Origin: Sulfurimonas sp. endosymbiont of Alviniconcha boucheti
GTDB lineage: Bacteria > Campylobacterota > Campylobacteria > Campylobacterales > Sulfurimonadaceae
Assembly: GCA_021766785.1 (NCBI GenBank)
Contig: JAICBP010000082.1
Location: 31,320 to 71,531 of the forward strand
Length of the DNA: 40,212 bases
Direction of reading: 5' to 3'
The notes beneath the pieces are model-generated. The model saw only the letters and a list, made by a program, of their open reading frames with translations, was not told the origin of the DNA and did not search any database. A program made the translations under genes and the position numbers. This document shows positions 1 to 10,943 of the stretch, piece by piece; position 1 is the stretch's first letter; every line of letters begins with the position of its first letter.

Positions 1-1509
1 AAATAGCTCATTTGGCATATTTATTACATATTTAAGTGTATGTTTAGATAAAATTCTCTTTCTAATAACTTCATCTTTAAAGTATGTTGATAAAGGTGAA
101 ATTATCACTCCATAGCGACTAACATTATCTAGCATTTTTTCTAAAAATTGTATCTCTTTTTTAGTGGGATTTGCTTTATTGTCTCTACCTCCATAAGGTG
201 GATTTATAAAACCTATTGTTGGATTTATAGTTTTTAAAATTATAGTTGCTTCATCACTAAAAAAGTCAATGTTAAATATTTTTGATTTACCATCACCACG
301 AAAAAGCATATTTGAGATAGCTAGTGAATACATAGTATTACTTTTTTCAAATCCTAAAAGTTGTTTCTGTTTTATATGTTTGATTTTTTCTTGCTTATTT
401 GCTATTTTTGAATTATGAATAGTATCAACTAATTTATTCATACCAGCGATTAGAAATGCACCTGTACCACAACATGAGTCAAATATTATATCATTAGTTT
501 TTATTTCAATTAATTCTGTGAAAAGCTTTGTAATATGATTAGGAGTTAAAACAATACCTTTTTTAACATTTGCGATACCTGCATACCTTAAAAATTCTTC
601 ATAGAATTTTCCAATAATGTCATAGCTTGTTTGCTTATTAAATAAAGGTATTACATTGTTTTCAAGCTCAATTAATATATCTTTTAATATCTCTGTATCA
701 TTTAAATCTTTATCAGTTTTAATAAAAGCTAATTCATTTAACAATACATCAATTTTTGGTTGGTCTATATCTTCATTGATTAGAATATCATTAATTGTTG
801 TTGGTATATTTCTTATTATATTAATAGTATTATAGTTATGATAGCTATTTTTAAAAACATTACCAAAATCATCTTTTTCATATAAACAAACCATTAAGGC
901 ACTTAATAAAACAGGTCTTTTTTGAGAGTCAATATTTCGTAATATTCTATTGATCTCACTTGAACTTTTAGAAATATTATTAGATATTAATTCTAAATCA
1001 AGATTCTCAAAAAGAGAAATATAGTCATTTTCATTTAAAAATTCAGCTATATTGATATCTTCAATTTTATTATCTTGAATAATAAATGTTGTAATTAAAT
1101 GATTATTTTCATCATGTATATTACCTGAGAATGCTATACCTAAAATTCTAAAGTTTTCTAAATACTTTTGAACAGTTTTTTGTTTAGTTTCAATGTTTTC
1201 TTTTAAAAAGAATTTTAAATAATGTTTTATACCATCTACTGCATAAAGTTGTGGTTTATTTACTTTTGGTGATTTATGGTCATTTATTTTATCTTTATTT
1301 TCAATTAATATTAATAATTTTTTATCTTCATTTAGATAGATTAAATCTGGACTTCCCTTATTTCCTTTCTCTGATTTACTAGCTTTACTTAGCATCTCTT
1401 GAATATTAGGATTTTTTGTTTTTTGTGGTATCCATTCTTTAGTAAAGTTTTTTTCAGTAGTTAAATAATTGAAAAGCTCTATATCTGTTTTTGCTTCATT
1501 TTTTGCCAT
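1..1509 (-). CDS. DNA N6-adenine methyltransferase with N-terminal PD-ExK-like nuclease region, partial
   Basis: Predicted restriction-modification enzyme that would methylate adenine using S-adenosylmethionine. I translated it directly: the frame is open from an ATG at 1509 to the left edge, so about 503 residues are seen and the C-terminus is missing. Near residues 54-72 there is GSPDLIYL followed by LLILIENK, a PD...ExK pattern typical of type I or IIG restriction nucleases. The SAM-binding motif FDSCCGTGAF lies near residue 340 and the catalytic NPPYGG near residue 436, both hallmarks of N6-adenine methylases. Having both parts in one chain suggests a type IIG-like enzyme, but the target-recognition domain would lie outside the window. 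It reads leftward, away from the CRISPR array, in visibly AT-rich DNA. A type I HsdM-like protein is the main alternative. Confidence 0.85.
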   Translation of the reverse strand, partial: MAKNEAKTDIELFNYLTTEKNFTKEWIPQKTKNPNIQEMLSKASKSEKGNKGSPDLIYLNEDKKLLILIENKDKINDHKSPKVNKPQLYAVDGIKHYLKFFLKENIETKQKTVQKYLENFRILGIAFSGNIHDENNHLITTFIIQDNKIEDINIAEFLNENDYISLFENLDLELISNNISKSSSEINRILRNIDSQKRPVLLSALMVCLYEKDDFGNVFKNSYHNYNTINIIRNIPTTINDILINEDIDQPKIDVLLNELAFIKTDKDLNDTEILKDILIELENNVIPLFNKQTSYDIIGKFYEEFLRYAGIANVKKGIVLTPNHITKLFTELIEIKTNDIIFDSCCGTGAFLIAGMNKLVDTIHNSKIANKQEKIKHIKQKQLLGFEKSNTMYSLAISNMLFRGDGKSKIFNIDFFSDEATIILKTINPTIGFINPPYGGRDNKANPTKKEIQFLEKMLDNVSRYGVIISPLSTYFKDEVIRKRILSKHTLKYVINMPNELF

Positions 1510-1721: not shown

Positions 1722-1966
1722 GTTTCAATCCCCTTTAGTCGGGTCATAGTATTCAATTGTGGGAAGATATTAGCAAAACAATAGGTAGTGTGTTTCAATC
1801 CCCTTTAGTCGGGTCATAGTATTCAATGTATAGGCTACAAGACAGATTGAGTGTTGCACAGTTTCAATCCCCTTTAGTCGGGTCATAGTATTCAATCAAA
1901 TGCACCATACTATGCTATTCTAATATTAACGTTTCAATCCCCTTTAGTCGGGTCATAGTATTCAAT
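1722..1966 (-). CRISPR. CRISPR array A: four 36-bp repeats, three spacers
   Basis: Four identical 36-bp repeats lie at 1722-1757, 1792-1827, 1861-1896 and 1931-1966, with spacers of 34, 33 and 34 bp. On the plus strand each repeat starts GTTTCAATCC and ends AGTATTCAAT. Read on the minus strand the repeat therefore ends in ATTGAAAC, the usual 8-base 5' handle of type III and related crRNAs. Together with the direction of the cas genes and the leader on the right, this means transcription is leftward. This is the older, leader-distal array; a leader copy sits directly to its right. Confidence 0.97.
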
Positions 1967-2247
1967 AGCCTAAAATAAGTGATATTGTAACTTATTTGAG
2001 TTGAAACGAAGCTTTTTAACTCCCATGTAGCCTTTGTTTAGTAAAAAGTTCGTAAATGAGAGAAAAACTTTAAAATAGAGCTTTTTATTTTTGACCTTTT
2101 TCTTTAAAAGTAGCTATTTTAGGGCTTTCCTTTTCAAAACACTCATAAATATCTTTGAGATTTTTTCAAAAAACGAAAATTTCTACTTTTTAGTATTTTT
2201 TTAAATACTTCTTCCTAATTTCTCATCTCAAACAACAAAGGAACACA
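1967..2247 (-). promoter_or_regulatory. CRISPR leader copy A, between the two arrays
   Basis: This 281-bp AT-rich stretch lies between array A and array B and contains no gene. It is the same sequence as 2430-2710, displaced by exactly 463 bp with no indel; I see two base differences, both near its upstream end (2222 and 2235 against 2685 and 2698). On the minus strand a TACAAT -10-like box (1984-1989) sits about 18 bases before the first repeat, so a transcript could begin right at the array. An internal leader this well conserved suggests a recent duplication. Confidence 0.8.
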
Positions 2248-2429
2248 GTTTTCACAATCCCCTTTAGTCGGGTCATAGTATTCAATCCAGCTTCTCTTTC
2301 TTCTAAAGTTGGAGTCTCTTCGTTTCAATCCCCTTTAGTCGGGTCATAGTATTCAATTGTTGAAGATATGGTTATGTCTGCCGGTAAACCCAAGTTTCAA
2401 TCCCCTTTAGTCGGGTCATAGTATTCAAT
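2248..2429 (-). CRISPR. CRISPR array B: hybrid repeat plus two full repeats, two spacers
   Basis: Two perfect 36-bp repeats (2322-2357 and 2394-2429) and one altered repeat (2251-2286) enclose spacers of 35 bp (2287-2321) and 36 bp (2358-2393). The altered repeat differs from the consensus at plus-strand positions 1, 3 and 4 (TTCACAATCC instead of GTTTCAATCC) but matches the remaining 32 positions. Its left part resembles the relic repeat at 2711-2749 and its right part the true repeat, so it looks like a recombination hybrid. The array is read leftward from the leader at 2430-2710. Confidence 0.95.
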
Positions 2430-2710
2430 AGCCTAAAATAAGTGATATTGTAACTTATTTGAGTTGAAACGAAGCTTTTTAACTCCCATGTAGCCTTTGT
2501 TTAGTAAAAAGTTCGTAAATGAGAGAAAAACTTTAAAATAGAGCTTTTTATTTTTGACCTTTTTCTTTAAAAGTAGCTATTTTAGGGCTTTCCTTTTCAA
2601 AACACTCATAAATATCTTTGAGATTTTTTCAAAAAACGAAAATTTCTACTTTTTAGTATTTTTTTAAATACTTCTTCCTAATTTCCCATCTCAAACAATA
2701 AAGGAACACA
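2430..2710 (-). promoter_or_regulatory. CRISPR leader copy B, upstream of array B
   Basis: This AT-rich non-coding stretch lies between the last cas gene and array B, where a leader is expected. It carries the same TACAAT -10-like box as copy A (2447-2452, minus strand), close to the first repeat. It is the leader-proximal site for array B. New spacers would be inserted here if adaptation proteins are supplied from elsewhere in the genome. Confidence 0.8.
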
Positions 2711-2764: not shown

Positions 2765-3985
2765 TTATTTTTGATTAATATAATTCTTAAAAATGTTAAG
2801 ATATTTTTTTAGCCTGTTTATGTCTTCTCGAACTAAAGTATCTCTATCGTTATTTTGATGGGCTATAGAATTTCTAATATTTGAAATACTATCTTTATAT
2901 TTACTATTACCCTTTTTTGTATAAAAATATTTACCAAATTCATCTTTCCCCAGTGATCTTTTTGCCTTCTCTCTCGATTTATAGTCATTAACATCATAGT
3001 CTTTCAATTCACAAGATTTTGAGATAATTGCCTCATAAAGTGCTAGATAAGAAAAAGCATAATTTTTATTTTTATAAAACCAATTTGCTAAAGTAAATTG
3101 AAATTGTGACTTTTCCTCTTTCTCAAGTTCCTCAACAAGTTTTATAATATCAGGTACTAAAAGTTTTACAATATTATTTGAAGAGTTTAACAAAGGTTTG
3201 ATTTTTTTAGAAGCATGCTTTATAAACTTTTCTAAAGCAGCAAGATTCATCATTTTTAGAGAATTATTTAAATGAATGAAGGTATCATTAACATCTTTCT
3301 CCACATTAACTTCTTCATTCTCTAAAAGCTGTACCAAAGGATCAAAATCAGAGTAAACTTTTATAGCCTCAATAGCTTTTATCCACTCTTGAATTTCTAA
3401 TAATAATTTAAGATCTATAATGGGAGTTTTTCCATCATTTTCTTGACTATATTCAAACATACCATAAAAAACACCACCAATTTTAAACTTTTTATCTGAA
3501 ATTGTTGTAGCAAATTGAGTCATGACAAAAGACATCAAAGAGAGGGAACGAAATGAGTGTGTAATATCAAGATAAAGAGTATCTCCATCTTCTATATTGT
3601 CTGCAATCTTTAGAAATTTTTCAAAATTATTCCAAAGTTCACCATCATTTAAACCATAATCTATAATAAAATTTTTAGAACCGTTTGGTAATATTTTTTC
3701 AAAATCACTCAATTTTTCTAAATCTATACCACCCTCTTCTTTGGCTTCATATAACTCTAACTGATATTCTGTATCTTCTCCCCCAAAAACTGAGTATGCC
3801 TCATCCCAAATTGATTTTTTTGTTCCTACTAAAAAGAGTTTATCAATGTTGAAATGTTGATACAATGCATCTGCTATAAAAGATGTTTCGTAAGTTTTTT
3901 CATCAATCTCATACGTAGCTTTTTGATAATTGCCTCCATCTTCTTTTTTACCCATTCCCAGCGAACTAATTAATATTTTAGCCAT
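2765..3985 (-). CDS. CARF-HEPN ribonuclease, Csx1/Csm6-type effector of the type III system
   Basis: Ancillary RNase expected to be switched on by cyclic oligoadenylate made by Cas10. The N-terminal half looks like a CARF domain of the DxTHG / TM1812 group: KILISSLGMG at residues 3-12 and LDITHSFRS at 139-147. The C-terminal half is helical and ends with RNSIAH (R371, H376), the R-x4-H signature of HEPN RNases. The length of 406 residues suits the family. It is the last gene of the cas operon, 24 bases after csm5, with the CRISPR leader just downstream. Family knowledge predicts non-specific RNA cleavage and dormancy; the naming (Csm6, Csx1 or Csx2-like) is uncertain. Confidence 0.88.
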   Translation of the reverse strand: MAKILISSLGMGKKEDGGNYQKATYEIDEKTYETSFIADALYQHFNIDKLFLVGTKKSIWDEAYSVFGGEDTEYQLELYEAKEEGGIDLEKLSDFEKILPNGSKNFIIDYGLNDGELWNNFEKFLKIADNIEDGDTLYLDITHSFRSLSLMSFVMTQFATTISDKKFKIGGVFYGMFEYSQENDGKTPIIDLKLLLEIQEWIKAIEAIKVYSDFDPLVQLLENEEVNVEKDVNDTFIHLNNSLKMMNLAALEKFIKHASKKIKPLLNSSNNIVKLLVPDIIKLVEELEKEEKSQFQFTLANWFYKNKNYAFSYLALYEAIISKSCELKDYDVNDYKSREKAKRSLGKDEFGKYFYTKKGNSKYKDSISNIRNSIAHQNNDRDTLVREDINRLKKYLNIFKNYINQK

Positions 3986-4009: not shown

Positions 4010-5323
4010 CTATTTTAAGTGTACGTTGATAATTTTTGTCTTTTTCCATTTTTTTTCATCAATTAATATTTTTTTCAACAATTCAAGTGATTCAAGATCT
4101 TTCTTCAAATCCCCATTTTCTATTGCTTTATGTAGAAGTGTACTTTTTGGAGTATTCGCTTTATCATTTTCGACCATTTCTTCTAATTGTTTTTCGAGTG
4201 GACTTAATTTACTCAGCTCTTCTTCTCTCTTTTTTGCCTTTTCTTCCTTCTCTCTTTGTTCAGCAAGAAGCCTCTCCTCTTTCTCTTTTTGCAAGCGAAG
4301 AGTTGTCTCTTTTTTTTGTTGAATCTTTTGTTTTATAGAGTATTGACTTTTTTCTAACTCTTTAAAGTATTCGGTCTCTTGGTTCTGAATTTGTTGTAAC
4401 GATTCTGTGTAGATTTCATCATCGATACGCTCAATTGTAACCCAACCAAACTGTTCATCTTTTAGCGTGTCATTTTCATATAAGAAGTGTGTAGCTAAAG
4501 GTTTTTTATAGCTGTTTTTTAATGTATCTACATTCTCAACATTAACAATATAATCCATACCAACATTCTTTCCAACTCTCGCACTAAAGCTATCAGCTGT
4601 GTCTCTATATCTACTGTTAGATCTTTTTGAGTGGTAATTTTTGAGACTCTTTTTTATATCATCAAATGTTTTATCGCAGGATATTGTAAATATAAACTCT
4701 GATTTTGGCTTAATAACTTCTATAATCTGAGGTATCCCATTGTTTGATGATTTATTAGGATCTCTGTGTTTTCTGTTAGCATACCCTATTTCAACACTGC
4801 CCTTTAAAAGCAAGGCATCAGATATTATAAGGTTTTGACGTTGCTCATTCCCTTTTACTTTTTCAGGATATATTTCAAGAGCTGTCTCTAACATACCTTT
4901 TATACTACTTCCTGGAATAATAGGTCGAAAGGTATTTGGATTTTTAAAAGTCTTTTCGATATGAAGTTGATTTTTATTTTTTGTGTTATTTTTGTTTTTT
5001 CGTTTATCATAAGCACCTTGTACTTTTTTTGATGTGCTGCATTTAAAGTTGGCTATGGCTATGGCTATTGCTCTTTTAGATTTGTAAAAATCTATCATTT
5101 GCATGTAATCTTGAAGAGACTTATCAAATTTTTCTTTATCAGCAGAATCCAAACTTTTGAAAAACAAAATCGGATCAAAATGATGAAGTACATTTTTATC
5201 AATTATATAATCTGTTGGCTCATAAACTTCACCTGTTCCTATATGTAGAGGGGAGAGAGTAGTTATCTTGAGCTTATAATGATGAAGACTATCTCTATTT
5301 ACTATAATGGTTGTATTACTCAT
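4010..5323 (-). CDS. csm5: Type III-A RAMP protein Csm5 with long coiled-coil C-terminal extension
   Basis: RAMP subunit that caps the crRNA 3' end of the Csm complex. The N-terminus has LSPLHIGTGE (residues 23-32) and the middle has IPGSSIKGML, both standard Csm5 motifs. After about residue 300 the protein continues as a highly charged Glu/Lys/Arg-rich helix (for example KEKEERLLAEQREKEEKAKK) followed by a small helical end, making it 437 residues where I expect about 350. That extension should form a coiled coil and has no obvious role in RNA binding. The ATG overlaps the end of csm4 by 8 bases, indicating translational coupling. Confidence 0.9.
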   Translation of the reverse strand: MSNTTIIVNRDSLHHYKLKITTLSPLHIGTGEVYEPTDYIIDKNVLHHFDPILFFKSLDSADKEKFDKSLQDYMQMIDFYKSKRAIAIAIANFKCSTSKKVQGAYDKRKNKNNTKNKNQLHIEKTFKNPNTFRPIIPGSSIKGMLETALEIYPEKVKGNEQRQNLIISDALLLKGSVEIGYANRKHRDPNKSSNNGIPQIIEVIKPKSEFIFTISCDKTFDDIKKSLKNYHSKRSNSRYRDTADSFSARVGKNVGMDYIVNVENVDTLKNSYKKPLATHFLYENDTLKDEQFGWVTIERIDDEIYTESLQQIQNQETEYFKELEKSQYSIKQKIQQKKETTLRLQKEKEERLLAEQREKEEKAKKREEELSKLSPLEKQLEEMVENDKANTPKSTLLHKAIENGDLKKDLESLELLKKILIDEKKWKKTKIINVHLK

Positions 5324-6203
5324 TATCGATCTCCTTTATAGGAAGTGTAATGCTATATCCTTGATGTATTGTCTCTTTATGTGTTGAATGACCAGAGATA
5401 GACTTTCCTATATATTGTATATTTTTTGTATTGTCAAATACAACTACACTGCCACTCCTTGCCATAAGTAGAGGTTTTTTAAAAGGACTATGTGTCGCTA
5501 AATCTCCTCCATGCTTTCCAAACTTTGTAATTGGAGTGTAGTAAATATTTTTTGCCTGAAGGTTTTGGAACAAAACATTTGATAGCATCATAAAAGTAGT
5601 TGATTCTTGTTTTGGAAACATAATACTTTCAAAAGAGGTATGTTCAAATCTGCCTTTCCCAATTGTACTATTTTTTCCATATCCACCTTCACCAAGAAGT
5701 TTAAAGATCTCATTAAGTTCCTCTAGGCTAAATTTTGTGTCATCAAGTAGTGCATAGATGTCTTGATTCACAAGAGAAGTTTCAGTTTCACTATATGGGT
5801 CGAACCCATTTTTAGTCGTAAAACTTTTATAGTTGATTGCATTTTTTACGACTGCTTGAGTTAAAGAGATATTGCCAATATCTGTATCACTTTTTGTATT
5901 TGCAAAATTTCCATCTTGTAAATCTTTTACAGTTAACCATACTTTTTTACGATTTTCTTTCTTTTTGTCCAAGTCTTCACCCAATATCGCAGTTGGAAGA
6001 GATGGTTTTGGTAAATAACCACTAGTAAACCCATCAGAGATAATCAAAAAAGGTGATTTTTCATAATCTTCTAAAAGAGTTACTAGTTTATTTTCACCCC
6101 ATTTATATCTAATTAGCCAACAAATCTGCCCAAAAAGTGTATCACCTTGCAAAAAAGATGCAAAGTTTGAGGTAGGTCTTATCATAGTTTTATAGAGTGT
6201 CAT
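5316..6203 (-). CDS. csm4: Type III-A RAMP protein Csm4
   Basis: Subunit that holds the crRNA 5' handle and contacts Cas10 at the base of the Csm complex. Early residues include GDTLFGQICW, the usual Csm4 opening, and the glycine-rich loop GEGGYGKNSTIGKGRF lies near residue 170. The length of 295 residues is normal. It starts 3 bases after csm3 and overlaps csm5, so it belongs to one tight operon. Assignment rests on motifs and on position between csm3 and csm5. Confidence 0.92.
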   Translation of the reverse strand: MTLYKTMIRPTSNFASFLQGDTLFGQICWLIRYKWGENKLVTLLEDYEKSPFLIISDGFTSGYLPKPSLPTAILGEDLDKKKENRKKVWLTVKDLQDGNFANTKSDTDIGNISLTQAVVKNAINYKSFTTKNGFDPYSETETSLVNQDIYALLDDTKFSLEELNEIFKLLGEGGYGKNSTIGKGRFEHTSFESIMFPKQESTTFMMLSNVLFQNLQAKNIYYTPITKFGKHGGDLATHSPFKKPLLMARSGSVVVFDNTKNIQYIGKSISGHSTHKETIHQGYSITLPIKEIDNE

Positions 6204-6206
6204 ACT

Positions 6207-6884
6207 TTACTCACTTATATGAAAAGTAACTCGTCCATACCCTCTTGAACCACTTCCCCCAAGATAGTCGGACTCAATAAGTTCAAAACCCTTTTTTACC
6301 ATTGTGATAAGCTTTTCTTCATTATCTTCATCTAAAATTTTTATTCGAATATCAAAATCAAATTTAATACCTGCTGGTACTCTCTCTATCTGTCTTGGAT
6401 GTTTAGCTGTTCCACTTTTTCTATCGATCACATTTTCATATTTTGCTTCAGATAGCACCATATCTTTAGATGTCTCATTTAAAAGACAATCACCAACATT
6501 AATTCTTGTGATACCAAAATCTCCCTCTTTATCCCCAAAAAGCTTTAACAGAGTTTCGGCACTATCTTTATCTCCCTTTTTATCCCCAAAAAGCTTTAAC
6601 AGAGTTTCGGCACTATCTTTTTTTTCTTTATCATCAAAGATGTTATTAGTTAATAACTTAGAGTTAAATGGATTCCCATCACCAATGCCAACAACTCCTA
6701 TATGCCACTCTAGTAAACTTCTCATTTTACCTTTTAAACTACTTCCTGGAATATAAGGTTTATTTGTATTGATATCTTTTATAACACCATTATTAATTCC
6801 ACCTATTTTCATAGTGTCATCACCACCACCAATGTGAAGCCCACTTAATAATTCTATTTGTCCTTTTATTTTTACTATTTTCAT
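6207..6884 (-). CDS. csm3: Type III-A backbone RAMP Csm3, with catalytic Asp apparently replaced by Asn
   Basis: Forms the repeated backbone of the Csm complex and normally cuts target RNA every six nucleotides. I prefer the ATG at 6884 (225 residues) because an AGGGAGA ribosome-binding site precedes it and it lies one base after the csm2 stop; an upstream in-frame ATG at 6923 is less likely. Motifs: GLHIGGGDD (15-23), IPGSSLKGKMRSLLEW (45-60) and LGGSGSRGYGRV (208-219). The segment IGGINNGVIKD (27-37) aligns with the family's IG..D.PVIKD, where the Asp is the catalytic residue (D33 in S. thermophilus); here it is N31. Residues 89-122 are a 17-residue segment in two tandem copies. Confidence 0.93.
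   Translation of the reverse strand: MKIVKIKGQIELLSGLHIGGGDDTMKIGGINNGVIKDINTNKPYIPGSSLKGKMRSLLEWHIGVVGIGDGNPFNSKLLTNNIFDDKEKKDSAETLLKLFGDKKGDKDSAETLLKLFGDKEGDFGITRINVGDCLLNETSKDMVLSEAKYENVIDRKSGTAKHPRQIERVPAGIKFDFDIRIKILDEDNEEKLITMVKKGFELIESDYLGGSGSRGYGRVTFHISE
6520..6621. repeat. 51-bp in-frame tandem duplication inside csm3
   Basis: Two 51-bp units (6520-6570 and 6571-6621) differ at a single base (6526 against 6577), which gives Glu in one copy and Lys in the other. They encode SAETLLKLFGD and flanking residues twice. The near identity points to a recent event. Confidence 0.93.
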
Positions 6885-6885
6885 C

Positions 6886-7281
6886 TTAATCTCTCCCTTG
6901 AAAAAATCCAATAACTGCTTCAAAAAACAATTTAAATGTTTTTAAATCACTTTTCTCCTCTACATCAGCAATGCATTGCTTCATCATTTCTTGAAACTCA
7001 TCACTGACTACTTTACGACTGCGTCCATATGCAACTTTAGAATTTAACATTTTTACAAATGGTACAATATCGTTCCACTCTTCTCTCTCTGATCTCTCAC
7101 AAAGCTCTAAAACTTTGTTATAAAAGTTTCTTACTTGTGTCTTTTTTGTTCCTTTTTGTATCTTTTTTGTTCCTTTTTGTATCTTTTCTGTGTCTTTAGC
7201 AATCCTTTCTGCCCACTCTTTAGCTGTTTCATTAAATAGCTCTGTATTTTGCTTGTAATCTAATATTTTTTTTTCTTTCAT
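6886..7281 (-). CDS. csm2: Type III-A small subunit Csm2
   Basis: Small helical subunit that lines the target-RNA groove of the Csm complex. The C-terminal half shows the Csm2 pattern TQVRNFYNKV followed by FVKMLNSKVAYGR. I place the start at the ATG at 7281 (131 residues) because AAGGAGA lies 7 bases upstream; an in-frame start at 7377 would run into the end of cas10. Residues 33-46 are a perfect tandem repeat, KIQKGTK twice, in the linker before the conserved domain. It lies 19 bases after cas10 and 1 base before csm3. Confidence 0.9.
   Translation of the reverse strand: MKEKKILDYKQNTELFNETAKEWAERIAKDTEKIQKGTKKIQKGTKKTQVRNFYNKVLELCERSEREEWNDIVPFVKMLNSKVAYGRSRKVVSDEFQEMMKQCIADVEEKSDLKTFKLFFEAVIGFFQGRD
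7141..7182. repeat. Perfect 21-bp tandem repeat inside csm2
   Basis: Two identical 21-bp units (7141-7161 and 7162-7182) encode KIQKGTK twice without disturbing the frame. Confidence 0.9.
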
Positions 7282-7300
7282 ATTCCTATCTCCTTTTATT

Positions 7301-8824
7301 TTAATGTTCTCTTTGTTTGTAAATAAATTCACATAGAAAGATTTTTGTTTCACTTGGATGTTTTTCAATATTTTCATTGAGTATTTCCATTAGTGAACTA
7401 TCTTTACTCATATCCATGTTTCTACTAAAAAGATAATTTAGCTTTGACTTCCATAGAGTATTTTTTATATCTTTATCTATATGTTTACTCATATCGCAAA
7501 ATTCTAAAAATCTGTATATTGTTGTTGTCTTAAGATCTTGATAATCTTTAAATGCTTCACTTAATTTTGTGTGAACTTGAATGTAGTCTGCCCATTTTAC
7601 ACTTTCACCCCAAATTGTTAGTGCATCTTTCTCATCATCAATCTCTTTGGAAGCTTTAAGCAACTCTTCAGTGTGATTTGCGAGATAACTTATAGGAGTT
7701 GATGGTTTTGCTATAGCTATTCCAAAGGAGATAGAGAGTTTTGTCTCTTTGCTATAGACAAACTCTTTAAATTGCTTCTGAATATCTCTTGAAAACTCCA
7801 TAATCTCATCCCAAGCACCTACTAAAAAAAGATCATCTCCACCAGAAAAAACAGTATAAATATTTTGGTATTTTTCTCTTAAAAGACGTGGTATATAGAT
7901 ACTGAAAAAGTTATCTAGCCCCTTACTGAATTTATCGAAGTTTGTAAAACTATCTGTCACATCACTCTGTTTTATAAAATTTCCCATACTATCAACATCT
8001 GCTTTTAATATACCAAGTGCCTTAATACCTACATCACTATTTTTGCAACTCTTTTCTGCAATAGACTCAAATAGAAGAGGATTACCATTCTCCTCTTCTT
8101 TTGGAATGTATGATTTAAGTCTCTCATCAACTTCTATTATGGTTTTAAAATCATCAAAAATTATACCTAACTCATCGCTGCTCATCGATATATTATTTTG
8201 AGTAAGTATTTTTCCAAACTCTACAAATATTTCACATTGATGGCAATAATCGTGTTCTTCTTTTCTTCTTCTTAGATTACAAACTTTACATAGATTCTGA
8301 TTAGTAATACCTGTATCATACTCTAAAATAGGATTAGTATGAATAAGATCGAATTTATTAAATTTACTCTTTTCAATCTCTTTTGCAACATCATCTCTAA
8401 AAGATTTGTAATTATCTCGCCACTGAGATCTACTAACATTTATGCTACAAAGAATAACTCCACTAAGAGCATAAAATTTTTCTATGAAGTAGGTATCTAC
8501 TTTTTTTTGTATCTCATTTATATCTGCATTTGGAAATGGAACAAGTATCTCAAATTTTCCTGCATTTATAGAAATAATATATTTTTCATCAATACTTAAT
8601 CTCTTACAAATGTATTTAGCTAAAACCTCTGTAAATACCTGAATAAAGGCAGATTTACTTCTTAAGACCTTTGCTGCAGTTACTGTTGTAAGACCATCAA
8701 AAAGGAAACTTTGAATTCCCCAAAAGTCACCAACAACCAAACTCATATGCTCTTCGATTAAGGTGTCAATATCACTTTCTTGATAATCTGGATTATAAAT
8801 TTGTGTATTAAAATAGTTATTCAT
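7301..8824 (-). CDS. cas10: Cas10/Csm1 without an HD nuclease domain
   Basis: Large subunit of the Csm complex; its Palm domain makes cyclic oligoadenylate from ATP when target RNA binds. At 507 residues it is much shorter than the usual 750-850. The first Palm begins almost at once (VGDFWGIQSF, residues 31-40), so there is no room for the N-terminal HD DNase. A zinc site is seen at C179, C182, C194 and C197. The second Palm has LKADVDSMG (273-281) and FSGGDDLF (326-333), so the GGDD cyclase site is intact. It overlaps the end of cas6 by 8 bases. The expected output is signalling without ssDNA cleavage. Confidence 0.94.
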   Translation of the reverse strand: MNNYFNTQIYNPDYQESDIDTLIEEHMSLVVGDFWGIQSFLFDGLTTVTAAKVLRSKSAFIQVFTEVLAKYICKRLSIDEKYIISINAGKFEILVPFPNADINEIQKKVDTYFIEKFYALSGVILCSINVSRSQWRDNYKSFRDDVAKEIEKSKFNKFDLIHTNPILEYDTGITNQNLCKVCNLRRRKEEHDYCHQCEIFVEFGKILTQNNISMSSDELGIIFDDFKTIIEVDERLKSYIPKEEENGNPLLFESIAEKSCKNSDVGIKALGILKADVDSMGNFIKQSDVTDSFTNFDKFSKGLDNFFSIYIPRLLREKYQNIYTVFSGGDDLFLVGAWDEIMEFSRDIQKQFKEFVYSKETKLSISFGIAIAKPSTPISYLANHTEELLKASKEIDDEKDALTIWGESVKWADYIQVHTKLSEAFKDYQDLKTTTIYRFLEFCDMSKHIDKDIKNTLWKSKLNYLFSRNMDMSKDSSLMEILNENIEKHPSETKIFLCEFIYKQREH

Positions 8825-9647
8825 AAATCTCCTTCACTCTAATTTTTCCAAGTCCGAATACTGTCTGTTTTCCAACACCTATGAGTTCACCTACTTTTAA
8901 GACTTCATAACTCTCTTTATTAAGATTTTTTACCTCGATTTTTCCAATAATACCACCTAAGTTCATTGTTGTCTTTTGTCTATTGCTCAATCTTGTCAAC
9001 TCTTTGTAATTTATATCTTTTGTAACTATATCACCTTGTATGTCATAAGGAAATTTTTTATACCCTTGGTTTAAAAGCTTCATCTGTCTTTGGTATATAG
9101 AATTAATAAGATCTTTTAACTCTAAATGGTCATCTCGTAAAAAGATATTGTTTTTCTTAATCCTTAGAGGAGTTACTAATTCTACACTTATACTCTCATA
9201 TATATCATCTATATGAAGAGTATTTATATAATTTTTTGGTAGTTTTATCTCTTTGTTATCCATACAACTTATATCATTGATATACATTGCAAAGTCTGTA
9301 AAAGTGACTCTCTCTTTTCCTAGTCCTAGTTGAGTGAGCATCATATGCAAAGCACTGACTACATAAGGTAATCTCTTACATGCATCATTAAAAAGATAAA
9401 AACTAAAATCATAATAATCATGACCTAGCTCAAAATCCAACCTATATTTGTGAAAACTATTTTTTTGCTCATAAAAACTGTAATACAAACAATTATTTGC
9501 TGCAAAGCACTCTTTGCATTGAAACGACGGATTTATACAGGTAACTTTTTTAAGAGCATATCCAAATGCACCACGTAATTGACTACCAATAAAGTATGGT
9601 ACTCTTACTCTTGGATTTATTAAAATAGATACCTTAGTAAACTGCAC
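8817..9647 (-). CDS. cas6: Cas6 pre-crRNA processing endoribonuclease
   Basis: Would cut pre-crRNA within the repeats to leave the 8-base ATTGAAAC handle. The C-terminus has the glycine-rich loop GELIGVGKQTVFGLGKIRV (253-271) typical of Cas6 of the PF10040 type. Four cysteines near the N-terminus (C37, C44, C47, C53) suggest a small metal site seen in part of this family. The start is a GTG at 9647, with TAAGG 7 bases upstream; the ATG two bases earlier is out of frame and soon stops. It is the first gene of the cas operon, and cas10 overlaps its end. Confidence 0.88.
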   Translation of the reverse strand: MQFTKVSILINPRVRVPYFIGSQLRGAFGYALKKVTCINPSFQCKECFAANNCLYYSFYEQKNSFHKYRLDFELGHDYYDFSFYLFNDACKRLPYVVSALHMMLTQLGLGKERVTFTDFAMYINDISCMDNKEIKLPKNYINTLHIDDIYESISVELVTPLRIKKNNIFLRDDHLELKDLINSIYQRQMKLLNQGYKKFPYDIQGDIVTKDINYKELTRLSNRQKTTMNLGGIIGKIEVKNLNKESYEVLKVGELIGVGKQTVFGLGKIRVKEIYE

Positions 9648-9774
9648 ATTTAGACCTTATTTTATGCTATAACTGTTTTTAGTACTTGTTGCAGTTTATC
9701 TAACATCACTTAAGATAAAACTTAAATTTTATTTACCATTGATGTATTGATCTGTTAGAGATTTTGCACCGTTT

Positions 9775-9878
9775 CTATTCAAATATCTCATCTTTAAACT
9801 GATTTAGTTCATCTTCTTGCAATTTTATAATTAATTTATCCTCTTTGGACTTTTGAACTCTATAGATAGAAGACTCTC
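9775..9878 (-). other. 33-codon open extension in frame after the ATPase stop codon
   Basis: Reading on in the same frame past the TAA at 9879-9881, the minus strand encodes 33 sense codons (starting ESSIYRVQKSKEDKLIIKLQ) before TAG at 9775-9777. It looks protein-like and charged but has no good start of its own. It could be a lost C-terminus, a remnant of another gene or chance. The rest of the 231-base gap up to cas6 shows only AT-rich DNA that should hold the cas promoter. Confidence 0.3.
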
Positions 9879-10943
9879 TTAATCACCAAGTGCCCAAATA
9901 TCAAAGGGAATGATCTCTACATGAGAGAGGGGGTGTGAGAGTATTGTCTCTTTGTTCATACTAATAATAGTTACTTTTTTAATAGCGTAGCTGAAGAGAA
10001 AACTCTCAATAGACTCTAATCTTTTAAAGAGTTTACGTTCATCTACAAAAGGTTTGCATAAAATAATCTCATTGCTCACAGGGAGAAAAAAGTCTATTCC
10101 CTCTTCATAGTAAGTCTCTCTTGCAGATTTTAGAAGTTCAAGATAAACCATATGCTCAAAAAGCTTGGAGAAATTCTTCTCTATGGTTAGAGCAGATTTA
10201 AGAGAGATGTCGCAGAGATAGAGCTTTTTTGTTGCTTTTGGTGAATTGTACTTTTGGAGTTGGTGAATATAGTTCGCTTCAACTAGCTCATCAAAGGCTT
10301 TATAGAGTTTATCTTTACTTATCTTTCTACTCTGCTTCAATCTTCCATATATAGTAAATGCAGAGAGCTTGTGTGAGTTAAACTTTGCACAGAGTTTTAG
10401 AATATCAAACGCCACATCATCAAGAGTATTTTTGAGCATTTTTTGGATATTGAGTACTCGCTCATCAGCACTTACCTTATGCATATGGGCAAAGCCACCA
10501 ATCTGGAAAAAGTGGTTGAGTGCGCTAGAGTCATACTTATGCTCGTAGGCTAAAAACTCTTCATAACTGAGAGGGTAGAGTTGTAGAGGTATGAGAGAGT
10601 CTATGTTGTATCTTTTTTGTGAAGTGATGATCAGTTGATTGACATTTGGGAACTTGATACTTTTGACATAGTTGTCTAAAACAAGAACATCAATACGATT
10701 TTTATTGCAAAAACTATTGAGATGAAGGTTAAGTTGTTCTATATCTATACGTACATCACTACAGTCTATATAGAGATAGGAGTTTTTTTTCAGTCCAAGC
10801 AGATAGTTTTTGACTAACTTACTTTTGCCACTATGTGTTATACCATTTATCTGGTAACTTCTTTCATCTAAAAAAACTTTTCTAAAATGAAATTTTTCAA
10901 GATTAAGGTCAGTTTTGTAAAATTCTTCAAGTAATATTTCCAT
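9879..10943 (-). CDS. ATP-binding protein, AAA with DUF4143-like C-terminus
   Basis: P-loop ATPase of unknown role. Walker A is GITHSGKS (34-41) and Walker B is IDVLVLDN (about 84-91). The middle part (PLSYEEFLAYEH and the region after) and the helical C-terminal half resemble the widespread AAA/DUF4143 ATPase family. The length of 354 residues is somewhat short for that family. It stands alone, divergent from rpsJ and separated from cas6 by 231 bases. Nothing links it to CRISPR function except position; it may be a resident gene beside the ribosomal operon. Confidence 0.75.
   Translation of the reverse strand: MEILLEEFYKTDLNLEKFHFRKVFLDERSYQINGITHSGKSKLVKNYLLGLKKNSYLYIDCSDVRIDIEQLNLHLNSFCNKNRIDVLVLDNYVKSIKFPNVNQLIITSQKRYNIDSLIPLQLYPLSYEEFLAYEHKYDSSALNHFFQIGGFAHMHKVSADERVLNIQKMLKNTLDDVAFDILKLCAKFNSHKLSAFTIYGRLKQSRKISKDKLYKAFDELVEANYIHQLQKYNSPKATKKLYLCDISLKSALTIEKNFSKLFEHMVYLELLKSARETYYEEGIDFFLPVSNEIILCKPFVDERKLFKRLESIESFLFSYAIKKVTIISMNKETILSHPLSHVEIIPFDIWALGD

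Follow-up and report, generated by a model that had tools for sequence, protein, structure and literature searches.

A natural type III-A CRISPR-Cas locus with an HD-less Cas10 and asparagine at the catalytic position of Csm3

Can a type III CRISPR-Cas complex that has lost its two nuclease activities still serve the cell through signalling? Cleavage of target RNA is regarded as the off-switch for type III signalling and as a guard against autoimmunity. Type III complexes with a dead RNase have so far been made in the laboratory, and they proved toxic or unobtainable in two archaea. The question is raised by a locus of a Sulfurimonas sp. endosymbiont of Alviniconcha boucheti, contained in a stretch of 40,212 nucleotides (hereafter, the window). 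An initial annotation of its sequence proposed that Cas10 lacks the HD nuclease, that Csm3 carries Asn at the catalytic Asp, and that the complex would signal persistently to a neighbouring CARF-HEPN ribonuclease without cutting DNA or RNA.

The operon and its CRISPR array

The locus is a type III-A (Csm) CRISPR-Cas system. Its operon is complete and reads cas6-cas10-csm2-csm3-csm4-csm5-csx1 on the minus strand (9647 down to 2765), followed by the CRISPR array; all features given below lie on this strand. The reading frame is unbroken in all seven genes, with no stop and no frameshift. Cas10, Csm2, Csm3, Csm4, Csm5 and Csx1 pass their curated NCBIfam cutoffs and Cas6 passes its Pfam cutoff. 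The crRNA-processing endoribonuclease gene cas6 (8817..9647; PF10040, 2.2e-12; PADLOC Cas6, 2e-48) shows no deviation at 34 conserved columns. It is followed by cas10/csm1 (7301..8824), encoding a protein of 507 aa with Palm domains (TIGR02578, 343.7 bits at a cutoff of 170; Palm2 PF22335, 4.5e-35), by csm2 for the small subunit (6886..7278, start possibly 7377; PF03750, 7.8e-16) and by csm3 for the backbone subunit (6207..6884; TIGR02582, 192.3 bits); the positions first given for cas10 and csm3 were confirmed. Csm3 has 225 aa when read from ATG, the open reading frame of 238 aa starting at an upstream TTG. The remaining genes are csm4 (5316..6203; TIGR01903, 104.3 bits), csm5 (4010..5323; TIGR01899, 41.8 bits, above cutoff) and csx1, which encodes a CARF-HEPN ribonuclease (2765..3985; TIGR02221, 149.9 bits; PADLOC CARF_HEPN, 9.7e-118). 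Upstream of cas6 and on the same strand lies an AAA ATPase/DUF4143-like gene (9879-10943; PADLOC PDC-S01 match, 5e-18) that was not found in related loci.

The array (1722..2429) is built of 36-nt repeats, which read ATTGAATACTATGACCCGACTAAAGGGGATTGAAAC on the minus strand and end in ATTGAAAC, the usual tag. Eight copies of this repeat are present genome-wide, all at the type III-A locus. The array holds five spacers in the window and one more just outside, and the five window spacers have neither an exact core match in viral contigs nor a meaningful phage match. A probable leader (2430..2693) recurs in an identical copy at 1967-2230 that interrupts the array, leader and array being partly duplicated as a repeat of 300 identical nt. 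A DNA methylase/restriction-type ORF also occurs twice, in nearly identical form (window 1-1509 and G000:C80:28556-31319, the latter being L123:1556-4320). The two copies meet at a single N, with more array repeats next to it; this is a scaffold join and makes the array region of the assembly uncertain. The genome also has two type II loci (L134:4880-10975 and L135:8310-13398), whose Cas9-like proteins measure 1410 and 1133 aa; both loci have cas1 and cas2, and the first is followed by a Cas4-like gene.

Two nuclease sites and the order of their changes

Residue 30 of the window Cas10 lines up with residue 250 of L. lactis Csm1, so the protein is short of some 220 residues at its N-terminus, where the HD would lie; the initial annotation was right to call the HD absent. 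An HD nuclease is typical of type III-A but does not define it, a recognisable HD being present in 65% of III-A loci (PMC11229360). A Cas10 tree with 58 rows places 15 of the 16 HD-less ones, the window Cas10 among them, in a single Campylobacterota group (SH-aLRT 89). The rows nearest to the window Cas10, L039 and L040, share up to 64% identity with it and are HD-less too. HD loss is an ordinary, old and common trait of this Campylobacterota clade. The possibility that a separate HD nuclease encoded elsewhere joins the complex, raised at the outset, found no candidate when the genome was searched: a second Cas10 and a Cas3-type HD nuclease are both absent, and the only extra match to the Cas10 model was rejected as RNase Y. 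The cyclase half of Cas10 is retained, with Palm2 and the GGDD motif at residues 328-331 (7832..7843) in the places described earlier. GGDD and a CARF effector together mark the locus as a putative cOA-signalling system; subtypes III-G and III-H, by comparison, are recognised by an inactive Palm cyclase and an active HD, whereas here GGDD is present and HD absent.

The second change lies in codon 31 of csm3 (6792..6794), which is AAT and encodes Asn. In a gap-free alignment, this residue falls on D32 of S. epidermidis Csm3. It also falls, again without gaps, on position 34 of the S. marcescens protein, whose D34 has been published as catalytic (changed to D34A in the 9zs2 construct; PMC13060164). 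We compared 213 unique Csm3 proteins spanning the catalytic column, from Campylobacterota, Thermodesulfobacteriota, Bacillota and others. Asp occupies the column in 209, Asn in two and Glu in two, and all 46 other Campylobacterota proteins have Asp. Such uniformity argues against a chance alignment at N31, and the broad alignment upholds its placement at the catalytic Asp. Across the 55 columns that are at least 95% conserved in the 46 other Campylobacterota proteins, the window Csm3 departs from the consensus once, at the catalytic Asp, and the other 54 are intact. This Asp is a typical feature of type III-A, not a subtype-defining one. The predicted structure, suggested earlier as a check on the position, settles the fold and not the site: the AlphaFold model has a clear Csm3 fold (best PDB match E. 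italicus Csm3, Z 17.8), but its catalytic loop 20-31 has a pLDDT under 50, so the assignment of N31 comes from sequence alignment.

The genome holds this single Csm3 and no second one. Relatives of it were absent from viral contigs, and plasmid records contained distant Csm3 only (<60% identity). A limited literature search found no report of a natural type III-A Csm3 without the catalytic Asp, which leaves such absence unproven. The other Asn-bearing protein in our set belongs to a Bdellovibrionales MAG (L107:9971-10774), in an operon whose Cas10 has both an HD motif and GGDD. The two Glu-bearing proteins (L148 and L215) come from the phylum sample of G503 (Bacillota).

All 15 other sampled HD-less loci keep the Csm3 Asp, including the sister loci L039 and L040 as well as L120 and L121. 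HD loss is therefore the older event, and D31N arose later, on the window's own branch; within the sampled HD-less Campylobacterota clade it is seen in one genome only. The codon change would have been a single base step, GAT to AAT. A general tie between the D-to-N change and HD loss was considered and rejected, given that the L107 Cas10 has an HD and the 15 other HD-less loci have Asp. Among the 135 genomes of the genus, Csm3-like matches of any kind came from only four others, three of them clear Csm3 proteins, all with Asp; the species itself has one genome. In the same-genus operon of G402, the stretch downstream of csx1 (L120:1410-6590) holds a MYG1-like phosphohydrolase gene, named by its opening motif, that overlaps csx1 and was not found beside other fetched type III loci; it also holds a WYL-like gene, a DarT/DarG-like pair and cas1/cas2.

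One relative shows the reverse arrangement. L047, from a Hydrogenimonas MAG (7994-10675 plus flanks), is a type III-A locus with an HD-less Cas10 of the same clade and an intact Csm3 Asp, whereas its GGDD is replaced by EAGH (LFAEAGHFF versus VFSGGDDLF in the window). No csx1 was present in the 20 kb fetched. L047 is a candidate RNA-cutter-only complex, the putative mirror image of the window, whose place in the tree is unsure owing to its long branch (1.94).

Proposed signalling without cutting and competing explanations

What would these changes do to the complex? In P. furiosus Cmr4, the equivalent exchange, D26N, abolished target-RNA cleavage while DNase activity and oligoadenylate synthesis were kept (PMC7192623). 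Asp-to-Ala mutants are likewise RNase-dead in the Csm complexes of S. thermophilus (PMC11040160) and S. marcescens (PMC13060164), and in III-Dv, where the catalytic Asp coordinates Mg at the scissile phosphate (PMC11026444). By analogy, RNA cleavage has probably been lost in the window complex. Given that HD is absent, that no substitute was found in the genome and that Csm3 carries Asn31, cleavage of either DNA or RNA by the complex is not expected, and this part of the initial proposal is well supported as a prediction by the sequence and the P. furiosus precedent. The signalling half beside it is intact as proposed: since Cas10 keeps its cyclase motif and Csx1 its HEPN motif R371-x4-H376 (2858..2875), signalling is the remaining output, with Csx1 as its probable executor. 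Judged from these motifs, the complex would be expected to synthesise oligoadenylate and to activate Csx1.

These analogies are best read as "signals but does not cut", and we lean slightly towards the view that the window encodes a III-A effector that has lost its two nuclease activities and acts only through signalling. In this mechanism, the crRNA-loaded complex would bind a matching transcript; ssDNA would not be cut for want of an HD in Cas10, and the bound RNA would stay uncut, or be cut very slowly, with Asn replacing the metal-binding Asp of Csm3. Target binding would lead the Cas10 Palm domains to produce cyclic oligoadenylate, which would activate the neighbouring Csx1, and the resulting unspecific RNA decay would provide the defence.

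The main rival explanation is that D31N marks a recent loss of function in a system that is starting to decay or being silenced, and not one adapted to signalling only. Given that RNase-dead type III complexes were toxic or not tolerated in two archaea, a recent damaging mutation must be weighed, and Csx1 without an RNase brake could be costly. D31N is confined to the window genome, the sisters L039 and L040 keeping Asp, and csm3 contains a 51-bp in-frame tandem duplication (6519..6620; 17 aa twice), missing from the initial annotation, that is recent, as 50 of 51 bases are identical. A 21-bp x 2.7 tandem repeat lies in csm2 (7135-7191), and csm2 and csm5 appear accelerated relative to L040, which along with the csm3 duplication could mean weakened selection. 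Tandem duplications of at least 10 aa occur in exactly two of the 213 Csm3 proteins, namely the two with Asn (in L107, 15 aa with 43 of 45 bases identical). Were the two features unrelated, the chance of this coincidence would be 1 in 22,578, in a post hoc test on two cases. The simplest explanation of the link is relaxed constraint after RNase loss; possibly, it reflects adaptation in a backbone that does not cut. Several observations argue against decay: the seven genes have neither stop nor frameshift, the other 54 conserved columns of Csm3 are intact, and csx1, cas6 and csm4 show no deviation at conserved columns. Furthermore, csm3 and cas10 have not evolved faster than in L040 (15 versus 12 and 46 versus 44 unique changes, respectively), and under random decay a single change at a conserved site would have a chance of about 1 in 55 of striking the catalytic column. 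We thus regard decay as possible though rather unlikely. With one genome as the evidence base, Asn31 could be recent or deleterious, and a base error is less likely; were it only recent damage, the locus would be a minor curiosity.

It is improbable, in our view, that the complex still cuts target RNA, with Asn31 or its neighbours allowing slow cleavage in an ordinary HD-less III-A system with a weak RNase. Cleavage is carried out by the RNA's own 2'-OH and a metal (PMC11026444), and the HD-less Cmr complex of Vibrio metoecus (VmeCmr) works despite very slow cleavage with its Asp intact (PMC8682760); against this stand the loss of cleavage in PfuCmr4 D26N and in the Asp-to-Ala mutants elsewhere, and no other acidic residue moves into the catalytic column of Csm3. 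A natural RNA-binding complex that holds or blocks chosen transcripts without cutting or alarm would suit the loss of both nucleases and the spacers without a known phage match, but is very improbable next to a retained GGDD and an intact Csx1, and the spacers of the array, which differ from one another, resemble those of ordinary immunity, with no host target shown.

If the complex does signal without cutting, the alarm might also be persistent, as first suggested, and here the precedents diverge. In a III-D complex, slowly cut thiophosphate targets raise oligoadenylate (PMC6053304), and RNase-dead Cmr4 of S. islandicus causes autoimmunity, dormancy or death (PMC9368842). On the other side, S. 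thermophilus Csm retains RNA ends for ~80 min and is active after cleavage (PMC11040160), and D26A made little difference to HD-less VmeCmr (PMC8682760), whose cleavage is slow anyway. That signalling in the window outlasts that of Asp-bearing relatives can be weakly inferred; a longer alarm is plausible, yet not established. No stand-alone brake on such an alarm was seen, a point against the signalling-only reading: there is no ring nuclease in the operon or next to it, and a genome-wide search for the Crn2 family found none. However, a known ring nuclease accompanies no more than 34% of Csx1 loci, and certain Csx1 proteins can themselves break down the signal (PMC12409355). The small array may lower the chance of self-triggering, by analogy with an argument made about 200 crRNAs (PMC7192623). 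A wild genome that combines the D-to-N change with no DNase and a small array would make it possible to test directly whether the off-switch is dispensable once the DNase is gone, and what else limits the alarm.

A broader idea, speculative and somewhat more doubtful than decay, is that functions have split within one HD-less clade, the window being a pure sensor or alarm and L047 a pure RNA cutter, and that the Csm3 Asp was lost at least two times, on each occasion alongside a tandem duplication within csm3 that maybe adapts the non-cutting backbone.

Comparison with known systems

The novelty lies in the natural occurrence together of an HD-less Cas10 and an Asn-bearing Csm3, with the cyclase and Csx1 retained; the window appears, from its sequence, to be a rare natural version of a laboratory-made mutant. 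The P. furiosus Cmr4 D26N complex (PMC7192623) shares the Asp-to-Asn exchange in a type III backbone RNase, but is type III-B, laboratory-made and equipped with an HD. Dead Cmr4 could not be introduced into P. furiosus except when HD and Csx1 were both inactivated (PMC7192623), whereas in the window HD is gone and Csx1 intact. The closest solved Csm3 by sequence is that of the type III-A Csm complex of Serratia (PMC13060164; PDB 9zs2/9zs4). This complex has a degenerate HD and signalling-based interference like that proposed here, and its D34A mutant mimics N31; the wild-type Serratia Csm3 has Asp, however, and the effector is NucC instead of Csx1. With Csm3 D34A, partial interference remained in S. 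marcescens, where interference is signalling-dependent (PMC13060164).

VmeCmr (III-B; PMC8682760) similarly has an HD-less Cas10, a signalling-only defence and very slow RNA cleavage, but differs in its catalytic Asp, its subtype and its NucC effector. In another known system, the Cas7 catalytic Asp is not conserved either, and the balance is the opposite one: the Cas10 Palm is inactive, HD is active and there is no CARF partner. The HD-less type III-A systems of Campylobacterota (L039, L040, L120 and others) share the Cas10 clade and the operon of the window, with csx1 also present in L120, and differ in that every one of them has kept the Csm3 Asp.
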